Assembly (NCBI GenBank): GCA_025454835.1
Contig: JALONQ010000025.1
Coordinates: 1 to 36,777, forward strand
Source: Bacteroidota bacterium
Lineage (GTDB): Bacteria; Bacteroidota; Ignavibacteria; UBA10030
DNA length: 36,777 nucleotides
Reading direction: 5' to 3'
Shown: piece by piece, positions 23,018-32,396 of the stretch
Layout: the number at the start of each line of letters is the position of its first letter
How positions within the stretch are numbered: the first letter of the stretch is position 1
Made by a program: the position numbers and the translations under genes
The notes under the pieces: generated by a model
What the model was told of the DNA's origin: nothing
The model's input: only the letters and a program-made list of their open reading frames with translations
The model's database searches: none

Positions 23018-23052
23018 CTGATAACTGCTCACTGATTACTGACGTCTGATCT
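23018..23052 (+). repeat. Heptanucleotide (CTGnnnn) array before ddl
   Basis: CTG recurs at 23018, 23025, 23032, 23039 and 23046, exactly 7 bases apart, with units such as CTGATAA, CTGCTCA and CTGATTA. The array ends 15 bases before the ddl start codon, so it occupies the leader. CTGCTCA and CTGATTA recur in the same order in the array before rarA. Confidence 0.7.
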
Positions 23053-23067
23053 CCTCTCCCATCTCCC

Positions 23068-24186
23068 ATGCCCCGACTTCGCATCGGCGTTCTCTTCGGC
23101 GGCCGCTCGGCCGAACATGAGGTCTCTCTCGTTTCTGCAACCGGCGTCATGCGCGCGCTCGACCCCCGCAAGTATGTCGTTGTACCGATCGGCATCGCCC
23201 CCAGCGGTCAGTGGCTCACAGGACCGCGGGCGCTGAAGATGCTCAAGGAGCGATCGGACGCGAGTCGTTTGCCCGAACACCTTCTGCTGCCAGATCCCCG
23301 GAAACGTGGACTTGTCGCCGTCAGCCGCGGAAGGGGCACGAAGCTCGTGGATGTGGTCTTTCCCGTCCTGCATGGAACGTTCGGTGAAGATGGCACTATC
23401 CAGGGGTTGCTGGAGCTGGCCGACATCCCTTACGTCGGAGCCGGCGTGCTCGGGTCGGCCGTGGGAATGGACAAGGTCATTCAGAAGCAACTCCTGCGGC
23501 AGGCGGGGATCCCTGTGACGACCGGGATCTGGTTCACTTCGAGCGAATTTCGGGTCGAGCGATCCAATTGTGTCGCCGCGATTGAAGGGACACTCGCGTA
23601 CCCCGTTTTCGTCAAGCCGCCCAACGCCGGTTCGAGCGTCGGGATCTCGAAAGCCCACGACCGGCGCGAACTACTGAAAGCGATCCGACTGGCCATGCGG
23701 TACGATCGCAAGGTGCTCGTCGAACAGGCGGTGCCGCACGCCCGCGAGATCGAGGTGAGCGTGCTCGGGAACGACGACCCGATCGCGTCGGTGCCGGGCG
23801 AGATCATTCCGTCGAACGAGTTCTATGACTACGACGCGAAGTATGTCGACGGTAAGTCCCGCGCCGAGATCCCGGCGAAGCTCACGGCCGCGACGGTGCG
23901 TCGCCTTCGTGATCTGGCGGTCCGGGCATTCAAAGCGCTCGACGGGGCCGGCATGGCGCGCGTGGACTTCCTGGTGAACCGAAAGACGAACGAGGTCTTT
24001 CTGAACGAGATCAACACGATCCCGGGCTTCACGCCGATCAGCATGTATCCGAAGCTGTGGGAAGCCAGCGGATTGTCGTATTCCAGGCTTCTCGACCGGC
24101 TCATCGCTCTCGCCATCGAGCGTCACCGACAAACGCGCCGGCTGAAGACCACGTTCCGGCCGAAGCGGGCGTGGTACCGAGGATGA
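23068..24186 (+). CDS. ddl: D-alanine--D-alanine ligase
   Basis: A 372-residue ATP-grasp ligase that makes D-Ala-D-Ala for peptidoglycan. It opens with LRIGVLFGGRSAEHEVSL, has VFPVLHGTFGEDGTIQGLLE, the ATP-binding VFVKPPNAGSSVGISK, EIEVSVLGND and the metal-binding ending FLNEINTIPGFTPISMYP. The family signatures are complete. It is slightly longer than E. coli DdlB (306) but normal for the DdlA-like group. The ATG at 23068 is fixed by the conserved N-terminus. The FtsB/DivIC-like division gene follows about 100 bases later. Confidence 0.97.
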   Translation: MPRLRIGVLFGGRSAEHEVSLVSATGVMRALDPRKYVVVPIGIAPSGQWLTGPRALKMLKERSDASRLPEHLLLPDPRKRGLVAVSRGRGTKLVDVVFPVLHGTFGEDGTIQGLLELADIPYVGAGVLGSAVGMDKVIQKQLLRQAGIPVTTGIWFTSSEFRVERSNCVAAIEGTLAYPVFVKPPNAGSSVGISKAHDRRELLKAIRLAMRYDRKVLVEQAVPHAREIEVSVLGNDDPIASVPGEIIPSNEFYDYDAKYVDGKSRAEIPAKLTAATVRRLRDLAVRAFKALDGAGMARVDFLVNRKTNEVFLNEINTIPGFTPISMYPKLWEASGLSYSRLLDRLIALAIERHRQTRRLKTTFRPKRAWYRG

Positions 24187-24285: not shown

Positions 24286-24633
24286 ATGGAATTCTACCGC
24301 CCCGCTGACACGCGAAAGTGGCTCCGATCGTTCGCCAGGTCCGCCACGAAGAACAAGCGCCGCATGCTGATCCTCGTCGGCGTCGGCATTCTCGTGCTCT
24401 ATCTTCTCTTCGACAACAAGGGCGTGATCGCCCGCATCCGGCTGGAACTGCAGGAACGCGAGATGCGCGACCGCGTGCGTCAGACAGAGTTGCAGAACGA
24501 CTCGCTACGCGCGCAGATAAAGGCGCTCCAAGGCGACAAGAAGACCATCGAAACGATCGCCCGCGAGAAGTACGGCATGACGCGACCCGGCGAGACGCAG
24601 TATCGGGTGCAGAAGGAAGATAGTGTGAAGTAG
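24286..24633 (+). CDS. FtsB/DivIC-like septum formation initiator
   Basis: A 115-residue bitopic membrane protein. It has a basic cytoplasmic N-terminus (about 1-26), one transmembrane helix (MLILVGVGILVLYLLF, about 27-43) and a periplasmic coiled coil (about 48-90, LQEREMRDRVRQTELQNDSL), ending with the family motif ETIAREKYGMTRPGE. FtsB/DivIC joins FtsL and FtsQ/DivIB in the divisome. The ATG at 24286 is chosen; earlier in-frame codons lie in the 17-base duplication. Its position after ddl fits a cell-wall and division grouping. Confidence 0.88.
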   Translation: MEFYRPADTRKWLRSFARSATKNKRRMLILVGVGILVLYLLFDNKGVIARIRLELQEREMRDRVRQTELQNDSLRAQIKALQGDKKTIETIAREKYGMTRPGETQYRVQKEDSVK

Positions 24634-24714
24634 ACTCCAGACGCCAAACAGCATCCAAAGGCAGCCAACTCTTCAAGCCCGAATAGACGTTCAGACTGAA
24701 GTTCTCCCGATCTA

Positions 24715-24763
24715 CTGATCACTGCTCACTGATTACTGATCACTGTCCTCTGACCTCTGCTTC
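24715..24763 (+). repeat. Heptanucleotide (CTGnnnn) array before rarA
   Basis: CTG recurs at 24715, 24722, 24729, 24736, 24743, 24750 and 24757, exactly 7 bases apart. The rarA ATG at 24764 is the next position in the register, so the array abuts the start codon. Units include CTGATCA (twice), CTGCTCA and CTGATTA. No Shine-Dalgarno sequence fits in the array. The remainder of the 24634-24763 gap shows nothing I can support. Confidence 0.8.
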
Positions 24764-26095
24764 ATGTCCGACCTATTCGCAACCGAACCCCGCCCCGCAC
24801 CTCGCACGGCACCGCTGGCTGAACGCCTGCGGCCGTCAACCCTCGAGGAATTCGTCGGACAGAAGCATCTGCTGGGTGAAGGGCAACCGCTGCGTGTGCT
24901 GTTGGAGCGCGGCGAGATCGGCTCGATGATCTTCTGGGGGCCGCCTGGCGTGGGCAAGACGACGCTGGCGCGCCTGATCGCGGGGATGGTGAGGGCGGAT
25001 TTTCAGCAGCTGAGCGCCGTGGCGGCGGGCGTGAAAGAGGTGCGCGATATCATTTCACGCGCCGAGAAGAACCTGAAGGCCTTCCGCAAACCGACTCTGC
25101 TGTTCATCGACGAGATCCACCGGTTCAACAAGGCACAACAGGACGCCTTGCTGCATGCGGTGGAGGACGGCACGTTGACTCTGATCGGCGCCACGACTGA
25201 GAACCCGTCGTTCGAGGTCATCGCGCCCCTCCTGTCGAGGTCACAGGTCTATGTGCTGCAGTCGCTCACGTCCGAGGACCTGGAGCAGATCCTCGAACGC
25301 GCGCTCGCACACGACGTCGTCCTGAAGGACCTGAAGGTCGACTTCGAGGACCGCAAGTTGTTGTTGCTCCTCTCGGGAGGCGATGCGCGGAAGTTGCTGA
25401 ACGGTATTGAACTGTCGGTGCGGCTTTCCGGCGCGACACCGCAGAGGCCCGGCAGTGTCACGCGCCTGCATGTCGAGCAGGCCTACCAGCGTTCCGCCTC
25501 GCTTTACGACAAGGAAGGCGAACAACACTTCGACATCATCTCGGCGTTCATCAAGAGTCTGCGCGGCTGCGACCCCGACGGCGCGCTCTACTGGATGGCC
25601 CGCATGATCGACGCCGGCGAGGACCCGAAGTTCATCGCGCGTCGCATGATCATTCTCGCCTCCGAAGATATCGGAAATGCCGACCCGCAGGCTCTTCCGT
25701 TGGCCGTCGCCTGCTTCAACGCCATCGACGTGATCGGCATGCCCGAAGGGCGCATCATCCTGGCGCAGGCCGCCGCCTACCTGGCCTCCGCCCCCAAGAG
25801 CAACGCTTCATACATGGCTATCGAAGCCGCCCTCGAGGAGGCGCGGAATAAGCCCAACCTGCCGGTGCCGCTGCACATTCGTAATGCACCGACGTCGCTC
25901 ATGAAAGACCTGGGCTATGCGTCGGGCTACCGCTATGGCCACGACTTTGACGGCCATTTCACCGAGCAACAATACCTCCCCGACGCTTTGAAAGACCGCG
26001 TCTACTACCGGCCGACGGACATCGGGGCCGAGAGGTCCATCAAGGAGCGACTGATGAACTGGTGGAAGAAGCGGTACTTATCAGGCAAACATTGA
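24764..26095 (+). CDS. rarA: Replication-associated AAA+ ATPase RarA (MgsA/WRNIP1 family)
   Basis: A 443-residue clamp-loader-like ATPase that acts at stalled replication forks. [21 protein letters not shown] is the N-terminal signature. Walker A is GPPGVGKTT (K65), Walker [13 protein letters not shown] (D116, E117), sensor 1 [12 protein letters not shown], and the C-terminal tetramerisation domain contains [22 protein letters not shown] and the [15 protein letters not shown] motif. Length and all motifs are normal. The gene is convergent with the VPS10-type gene, with a repeat cluster between them. Confidence 0.96.
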
Positions 26096-30261: not shown

Positions 30262-30320
<59 letters not shown>

Positions 30321-30338: not shown

Positions 30339-32396
30339 ATGCCGACCCCGCGACGTTTCACTTTTCTTATGGTGGCCCTGCTCTCCTCCGCGGTCGATGC
30401 CCAACCTCCCGCCGTCCTCTATAACGGCACCAACGCCTCGGGACCCGAACGCTTGCTGGCGATGACGCTGGCCGGCATCGTCAATCGCGACTCAGCACGG
30501 CTCTATCTACTGAACGTGTACGAAACGTGGTCGTACACCCAGACGGACGAACAATGGCGCGACCTGTACCGCTCGCGCGGCGGCGTGGTCTTCGACAGTA
30601 TCGCCTCGGTCACCGAGCTCGTGAACCGGTTTCGGTCGTTCGTACAGGGAGGCGTCTCCTATGACGCCAACCGGCTCTACGGCAATTTCTCCGGTCAGTC
30701 ATTTCGATGGCAGGGAGAATATGCCTGCCTCATCGGTGGCCTTACGGACCGCCTGCCGGTGACGGCCGCGATGGCGAATACGTTTGGACTGGCGTTGGCC
30801 GATTCCTTACTCGTCGAAGACCGCTACGACGGCGATGCGGCGGTCTGGGCCCCCGGAAAACTTGAGTATCCGCTTCACGCGTGGAACAACGGCTCCCTGA
30901 CGGAGGAGCAGCGATACATGACGCTGCTGCAGTGGGGCGTCGCGACGCTCCTTCCGCGATGCCATCCATCCAAGTTCTACATTCGCGAGATCACCGACTG
31001 GGCCGTGAAGCACCGGATGTTCCAGGTGAACATCGCGGGCACCTCATCGCTCGACCTGTTCTCCGTCTCGACGGCGAAGGCCGACATTCTCGACAGCGCG
31101 CTCACGTTCCTCCACCGCAAGAACCTTTCGTCCATCTTCCACATCTACGGTTGGATGTACCCCGAACCGATGACGCAGTGGTTCGCGTTCTTCGGGGCAT
31201 CATTCCACGAGACCCTTCTCGGTAATCTATCGTGGCACTCGGCGTTCCCCGTGGCGCTGCGTTTGTATCTGCCGACGTCCCGCGTTCTGCCCGATACCGC
31301 CATCGTCCGGGACAAATACTACGTGCTCTTCATCGGGTCCGAGGGTGACGCCGCCAATTGGGTCTTCTCGTTCCAGTCGGGCGCGTGGCTGTCAGCGCAG
31401 CGCGGCACGCTGCCGATCGGATGGGGGATGAACTTTCATCTGCTCGACGAATGCCCCTTCGTCGCTTCGTACTACTACGACACGGCGACGCCGGCGGACG
31501 GATTCATGCCGGTCACCTCACCCCTCGGCTATTCGTATCCCGACGACTTCCCGGCCTCGTCCAGGTCCGGGGCCGTGAGCGCTGCGAACGCCTTGATGAC
31601 GAAGTATGGCGTCACCGATTGGTACGGTTACAAGCACTACGCCGGCACCGGCAGCACCAGCTTTCGCGGCGTGACGATCTACAACTCCTTCGACTTTCCG
31701 ACCTACGGCTCGTTCCTCCAGGCCTCGGGCGCGACGATGTCGTTCGTATACGACCCGCAGCTCCCGTCGCAGGCGCCCGTCACGAGCTACGGCTCGGTGA
31801 TGTTCAGCCATACCGGCGACGGCTCGTTCTACGGCGATGCCTCCGACCCGAATACGTACGCAACGCGCATCGTCAACATTCTGAAGTCCACGACCCGGCC
31901 GAAGTTCTTGCTCGGGGGCTATCAACGCTTCCGGCAGGACAACTTCGCCACCCGTCCGGCCCCGGAGGCCCACGACATCTCCGTCACGCGTCTCGCGCAG
32001 GTCGTCACCGCCCTCAAGGCCGATCCGATCGTCGGACCGCATGTCGAGGTCGTGACGCCCCAACACTTTTCCGTCCTGCTCCGCAAACAGCTCGGCATTC
32101 TGGCGGTCGATGACCAGCCGTCGCAAGCGATCCCCGACCGTGTCGCCGTCTCTGCGTTCCCCAATCCGTTCAATCCACGCGTGTCGTTGACCTTCAGTGT
32201 GCCGGCCGACGGACCTGTTCGGGTGCGCGTCATCGACCTCCTCGGCCGGGAGGTGGCCCTCTTGATCGACGCTCCACTCCCTGCGGGCGAGCATCGTGCC
32301 TCATGGTCGGCACTCCATCAGCCGTCGGGCGTCTATGTTGCCGTCGTCGAGTCCCCGTCCGGACGGGCGCTCCACAAGCTTGTGCTGGCGAAATGA
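30339..32396 (+). CDS. GxGYxYP-type putative glycoside hydrolase with T9SS sorting domain
   Basis: A 685-residue secreted protein. Residues 1-22 are a signal peptide (FLMVALLSSAVDAQ). The N-terminal domain has RLLAMTLAGIVNRDSARLYLL, typical of GxGYxYP_N. The name motif appears near residue 395 as PLGYSYP, with the first glycine replaced by proline. The last 80 residues (AVSAFPNPFNPRVSLTF, then VRVIDLLGREVALL, ending HKLVLAK) form a type IX secretion C-terminal sorting domain, so the protein should cross or attach to the outer membrane. The family is linked to glycan loci but its reaction is not established. It overlaps the GH5 gene by 4 bases. Confidence 0.8.
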   Translation: MPTPRRFTFLMVALLSSAVDAQPPAVLYNGTNASGPERLLAMTLAGIVNRDSARLYLLNVYETWSYTQTDEQWRDLYRSRGGVVFDSIASVTELVNRFRSFVQGGVSYDANRLYGNFSGQSFRWQGEYACLIGGLTDRLPVTAAMANTFGLALADSLLVEDRYDGDAAVWAPGKLEYPLHAWNNGSLTEEQRYMTLLQWGVATLLPRCHPSKFYIREITDWAVKHRMFQVNIAGTSSLDLFSVSTAKADILDSALTFLHRKNLSSIFHIYGWMYPEPMTQWFAFFGASFHETLLGNLSWHSAFPVALRLYLPTSRVLPDTAIVRDKYYVLFIGSEGDAANWVFSFQSGAWLSAQRGTLPIGWGMNFHLLDECPFVASYYYDTATPADGFMPVTSPLGYSYPDDFPASSRSGAVSAANALMTKYGVTDWYGYKHYAGTGSTSFRGVTIYNSFDFPTYGSFLQASGATMSFVYDPQLPSQAPVTSYGSVMFSHTGDGSFYGDASDPNTYATRIVNILKSTTRPKFLLGGYQRFRQDNFATRPAPEAHDISVTRLAQVVTALKADPIVGPHVEVVTPQHFSVLLRKQLGILAVDDQPSQAIPDRVAVSAFPNPFNPRVSLTFSVPADGPVRVRVIDLLGREVALLIDAPLPAGEHRASWSALHQPSGVYVAVVESPSGRALHKLVLAK

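Follow-up and report, generated by a model that had tools for sequence, protein, structure and literature searches.

Seven CTG triplets follow one another at exact 7-base steps ahead of rarA, and the ATG of the gene takes the next step (Table 1). The question that this locus raises is whether such an array belongs to the start signal of rarA or is one instance of something more general. The preliminary description of this DNA, whose account of the array and its register is borne out in full, offered two options: a translation or transcription start signal, or an element that prefers to insert at this spot. We followed both in the window (the whole stretch of DNA analysed, 36,777 nucleotides, which is contig C36), in the 3.2 Mb genome (47 contigs; coding sequence makes up about 90% of 23 systematically sampled stretches, 460 kb in all) and in other genomes, the nearest named ones by RarA (best identity 66% among the matches listed) being Ignavibacteriales and MAGs labelled Bacteroidetes, Ignavibacteriae or Chlorobi. 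The rarA array is real and non-random, a genome-wide heptamer repeat whose placement here is specific to the lineage, and no start signal specific to rarA.

Table 1. CTGNNNN arrays of the window and the genes around them.
Feature	Position	Strand	Remarks
CTGNNNN array, 5 units	23018..23048	+	sister array; next gene 19 nt downstream
D-Ala-D-Ala ligase gene	23068..24186	+	PF07478, PF01820; downstream of the 23018 array
DivIC/FtsB-type septum formation initiator	24286..24633	+	PF04977; upstream gene; start from our own gene caller (ORF list: GTG 24238)
CTGNNNN array, 7 units	24715..24759	+	divIC-rarA gap; 4 A-ending units, 2 T-ending units, then CTGCTTC; CTG at 24715, 24722, 24729, 24736, 24743, 24750, 24757
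rarA (MgsA/RarA AAA+ ATPase)	24764..26095	+	PF12002, 6.7e-73; start is the next 7-base step past the array
CTGNNNN array, 6 units, CTGGCCT-rich	30265..30302	+	sister array; divergent gap
GxGYxYP-family gene	30369..32396	+	downstream of the 30265 array; ORF list start is ATG 30339

The array and the rarA start

The preliminary description overlooked two sister arrays in the window, each on the same strand as the gene that it precedes. All 12 three-unit CTGNNNN matches in the window fall within the three arrays, compared with a mean of 0.13 and a maximum of 2 in 100 dinucleotide shuffles, which rules out a chance origin of the rarA array. Comparison of RarA sequences makes this start credible, since 19 of 30 rarA loci, this one included, align from query residue 1, and ATG 24764 is probably the true start. 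Judged by eye, the 4 nt between array and ATG contain no Shine-Dalgarno-like 4-mer. Such a start is ordinary in this genome, because only 46 of 169 called starts carry an SD-like 4-mer at -17 to -4 (18 of 169 at -47 to -34), as counted in the systematic sample for starts preceded by a gap of 60 nt or more. Furthermore, no consensus promoter or terminator was found from 24600 to 24800.

CTG arrays across the genome and its relatives

The genome contains 53 CTGNNNN arrays of at least four units, 50 of them intergenic, a set that is complete in that it accounts for all 166 four-unit windows of the genome (68 + 98). Among their 325 units, the commonest are CTGACCT (29), CTGATCA (24) and CTGGCCT (24). 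Arrays of five units occur in 36 of 61 genomes (this one and 60 relatives), and a five-unit match is found in 110 of 247 genomes across the phylum. A reversed-pattern control yielded 1 match against 113 for CTG in this genome; in some other genomes (for example, G123, G155 and G167) the control exceeds the CTG count, and genomes with a high control may abound in other heptamers. Literature listings, which cover the field in part, returned no published account of the CTG-core heptamers of this bacterial group.

The STRR sequences of cyanobacteria are tandem 7-nt repeats with unit sequences that differ from CTGNNNN. Naming them as the closest analogue, as the preliminary description did, was reasonable, but two other families, the TAACTGA (PMC4679880) and GGGAATC (PMC4692102) repeats, are closer as described in their sources. 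TAACTGA direct repeats are reported from Beggiatoaceae, Cyanobacteria and some Bacteroidetes (MacGregor 2015, PMC4679880), and a role at starts was suggested for Beggiatoaceae. According to that account, they too are 7 nt long and mainly intergenic and share the core seen here (TAACTGA is CTGATAA rotated), their sets often stop a few bases short of a start codon, at the place of a ribosome site, Shine-Dalgarno sites are few, some sets are broken by related heptamers, and sets within genes run in reverse orientation. The combination of intergenic position, nearness to a start and no Shine-Dalgarno site recurs here, with 50 of 53 arrays between genes and a 4 nt gap before rarA without an SD-like 4-mer by eye. 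However, the published unit is exact, whereas here only CTG is fixed and units are mixed; an adjacent CTGATAA pair is absent from all 53 arrays. Orientation also differs: the repeats of BOGUAY are mostly directed to starts (147 of 170 sets), those of Microcystis form a mixed sample, and 12 of 14 in Flexibacter litoralis are forward (PMC4679880), compared with 26 arrays facing starts and 23 facing stops here.

The latter counts bear directly on the first option, by which the array would be a translation or transcription start element, with CUG every 7 nt read by a regulator, or by ribosomes through S1 or some other RNA-binding protein. The spacing of four bases from the last CTG to the ATG with no Shine-Dalgarno site, the position of all three window arrays ahead of same-strand genes, and the start-directed sets of BOGUAY (PMC4679880) speak for this explanation. 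A genome-wide search of the kind that the preliminary description proposed nevertheless discloses no bias to start codons: the near-equal numbers facing starts and stops are matched in co-directional gaps, where a start lies on the 3′ side of 22 arrays (sense) and a stop on that of 19 (antisense); divergent and convergent gaps hold three arrays each, and for three more a neighbouring gene was called on one side only. A start codon in the 7-base register of the array, the most suggestive feature at rarA, is found for 5 of 26 start-facing arrays and for 3 of the 16 that lie within 35 nt of a start, as expected by chance (about 1 in 7). These calls derive from our own hexamer scorer for this genome, and a codon scorer for relatives, rather than from a standard program.

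The orthologous gaps argue in the same direction. Thirty rarA loci were collected from 32 genomes, with one genome per species and the rarA of the same-genus genome G001 at a contig end, and one locus (L172) was set aside because it meets a contig end. Among the 29 readable loci, a CTG chain of at least three units within 260 nt before rarA occurs in this genome alone, and in none of the 28 others. Three of the 29 display a mirror placement, with four-unit CAGNNNN chains just past the upstream stop (L174 in G009, L177 in G003 and L199 in G011). Two acidobacterial loci (L090 and L103, out of 79 named loci that have 260 nt of upstream sequence) do carry CTG heptamer arrays right before rarA, as a start element would predict; we think that they reflect how common pre-gene arrays are, with 16 arrays no more than 35 nt from a start in this genome, rather than a start role. 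In L103, around 2850-2940, the array is of CTGAACC type and reaches nearly to the ATG. On orientation counts, register and orthologous gaps, we reject the array as a start signal of rarA, and a start element of any of the kinds above appears unlikely.

Strand polarity at gene borders

The second option, a preferred insertion site, survives in part: the arrays do keep close to coding edges, and their strand has a fixed polarity there, but they make no difference between starts and stops. Of 47 arrays in this genome, 40 lie closer to the coding edge that follows them 3′ on the CTG strand than to the one on their 5′ side (binomial p 1e-6; medians 23 versus 137 nt), a count that omits the three in-gene arrays and the three for which a neighbour was called on one side only. 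This polarity is present in both classes (start-facing 20/25, stop-facing 20/22), and although called starts can be off, called stops are much less so, and the stop-facing class alone retains it. In relatives, it is seen in 45 of 61 arrays (p 2.6e-4; 26 sense, 24 antisense), from 11 of 13 genomes, with none from G035 or G041, and unevenly between genomes (for example, 4/7 in G030 and 1/3 in G006). The stretches examined there cover 79 of 82 places, defined as arrays of at least five units without C at the -7 position, and arrays less than 200 nt from a stretch end, as well as repeats of identical sequence, were dropped from the count. Of the relatives' arrays, 26 of 87 lie within called genes, so that an intergenic location is not a rule for the CTG family.

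Polarity of this type is not confined to CTG. The main repeat period of the sampled intergenic DNA is 7 (lag-7 self-match 0.286 versus 0.261 shuffled, raised also at 14 and 21), and in the 41.7 kb of intergenic DNA in the sample, three-unit triplet chains of period 7 number 230 against 41.6 expected, the highest among periods 4-15, with period 9 likewise raised (126 versus 35.6). The AAG/CTT triplet leads the period-7 chains and CTG is outside the eight top triplets listed, indicating that CTGNNNN is one heptamer family among several. Other intergenic heptamers of this genome include CATCTTA, TTCACCT, ATTCTCC and TACCCGA types (L168, L161, L119, L141, L146). When heptamer arrays other than CTG with a pyrimidine content of 60% or more are oriented by their pyrimidine strand, the polarity is kept in 30 of 40 (p 0.002), and in 36 of 55 without the pyrimidine filter (p 0.03). 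Across 100 heptamer-period arrays, CTG included, the near edge is predicted best by the strand with C>G (77/96), followed by Y>R (71/96) and T>A (64/95), and in the 28 arrays where C>G and T>A conflict, C>G gives the near edge in 19. Background DNA leans the same way, but mildly, with a pyrimidine content of 0.52-0.58 over the last 60 nt before starts and 0.47-0.50 in the first 50 nt past stops.

A close counterpart is provided by the GGGAATC and GGGGA(C/T)T heptamer repeats of Xanthomonas and Nostoc (PLoS One 2015, PMC4692102), an account that also mentions three heptanucleotides of Calothrix, finds no regulatory role and discusses quadruplexes. As described there, the G-rich sequence sits on the non-coding strand when the repeats precede an ORF and on the coding strand when they follow one, mostly within 50 bp. 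These repeats resemble the CTG arrays in being genome-wide 7-nt arrays, largely non-coding and of the same polarity (PMC4692102): the over-representation of a 7-nt period in intergenic DNA recurs here (230 versus 41.6), as does a purine- or G-rich strand that is coding past stops and non-coding before starts (40/47, 45/61 and 77/96 in the counts above). In one respect they differ. The Xanthomonas and Nostoc heptamers form G-quadruplexes in vitro (PMC4692102), whereas the CTG arrays hold few G-runs, with any GGG or CCC in only 4 of 53, and lack the runs of at least three G in successive units that mark quadruplex-forming heptamers. Because CTG arrays nearly free of G-runs show the same polarity, quadruplexes are probably unnecessary for the border polarity of heptamers. 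We would call this border polarity in arrays nearly without G-runs the new part of the analysis, the rarA array itself being ordinary for its genome. A tempting start-signal reading of rarA is thereby replaced by a measurable regularity, the cause of which is now testable, since unlike sequences from another phylum, nearly without G-runs, display the same border polarity.

A broader generalization, by which polarity would be a quadruplex-independent property of bacterial heptamer arrays in distant phyla, set by C>G asymmetry, with the arrays serving as strand-sensing border elements, strikes us as a long shot. Under it, any transcript entering a gene from intergenic DNA, sense via the start or antisense via the stop, would meet a C>G stretch first, and such elements might act, for example, on untranslated or antisense RNA. 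A Rho-type version is weakened by an ordinary YC density, which in thirds of arrays is 0.118-0.177 per base against a background of 0.153 and not clearly raised; a Rho rut-like leader was rejected on the same grounds.

Origin and growth of the arrays

Unit order provides a view of how the arrays may have grown. In the rarA array the units end, in order, in CA, CA, TA, CA, then CT, CT, TC, and the precedence of A-ending over T-ending units is general: 268 ordered pairs against 29, with 23 of 25 arrays of this genome following it and none of 2000 within-array shuffles reaching it. Relatives show the same order (58 versus 20 pairs; 11 of 15 arrays; 2 of 2000 shuffles). Moreover, the variable tetramers are more alike within arrays (identity 0.59-0.63 at lags 1-3) than between them (0.395), and the longest arrays display 21-nt higher-order repeats by eye. 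While the order is observed directly, we read it, together with the likeness of neighbours, as local duplication with a composition gradient toward the coding edge. Spread as intact blocks was set aside, as block sharing between arrays gives a weak and mixed signal: 10 three-unit blocks are shared against 3.9 expected (reached in 8 of 500 shuffles) and 1 of five units against 0.0 (3 of 500), but the 86 two-unit blocks against 81.8 (167 of 500) and the 1 of four units against 0.2 (76 of 500) are unremarkable.

We consider it likely that the rarA array is one copy of a genome-wide set of intergenic heptanucleotide tandem repeats, grown by slippage and retained at gene borders to which their strand composition is suited. 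Units would arise and spread locally in steps of 7, 14 and 21 nt, through slippage during replication or unequal exchange, and selection would keep an array only at suitable borders, namely where a C/T-rich sense strand precedes a start or a G/A-rich sense strand follows a stop. At rarA the outcome would be a leader rich in pyrimidines and devoid of a Shine-Dalgarno site, which is tolerable in a genome where many starts lack a strong one, and no rarA-specific signal would be needed. The compositional filter is plausible at starts and, at stops, a bare proposal. Plain slippage does not explain why, in many genomes (110 of 247), CTG stays fixed while the tetramer varies, nor the A-then-T order of units.

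A mobile origin is a rival explanation. Here the arrays would be part of, or seeded by, a REP-like hairpin element mobilized by a Y1 transposase at CT(G) sites, with polarity reflecting single-strand insertion. A palindrome or hairpin ending in TCGGGGCAWGCYA is followed directly by CTG in all eight exact copies in this genome (G000, L327-L334), several such hairpins are also preceded by CTG heptamers or set inside a CTG array, and known TnpA-REP enzymes cleave at CT (PMC8266576). Furthermore, the Y1 transposase family PF01797 is present in 52 of 61 genomes, and five-unit arrays occur in 35 of these 52 but in 1 of the 9 without it (Fisher p 0.0024, with kinship ignored). Against this origin, most of the 53 arrays, including the three in the window, have no 5′ hairpin by eye, and G019, a genome 72% complete, carries arrays without PF01797. 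REP/RAYT elements are hairpins linked to a Y1 gene that is flanked by further copies of the hairpin. The Y1 gene of this genome (C33:275-616) lies at a contig end with other palindromes beside it, and the 2116 bases around it, of which only 274 are on the contig-end side, contain no CTG chain or TCGGGGCAWGCYA hairpin. The correlation with Y1 genes, set beside an own Y1 gene with no linkage seen, is suggestive, and we judge a REP-like origin improbable.

Weaker still is the proposal that an array folds with an inverted copy elsewhere in its gap into a terminator- or attenuator-like hairpin: purine-rich heptamers do lie at the opposite edge of some gaps, but the reverse complement of an array fits its own 5′ flank no better than those of the other arrays (mean rank 0.596 over 46 arrays, one of which ranks at 0.05 or lower) and the rarA leader is not unusually structured (z -0.79), and this flank-matching result leads us to reject the pairing as very improbable.

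Inside genes, antisense CTGNNNN arrays in nine loci of relatives (L254, L259, L260, L271, L273, L274, L275, L280, L282) all lie 184 nt from the gene end, where they fall in a T9SS type A sorting domain (TIGR04183 in all six tested). The TAACTGA repeat, translated in reverse, reads SVISYQL (PMC4679880) and by eye resembles the ISYQL-type strand of that domain. A second in-gene antisense array, in G035 (L251-L253, L255-L257), is located 440-443 nt from the gene end, with closely similar sequence at several loci of that genome.
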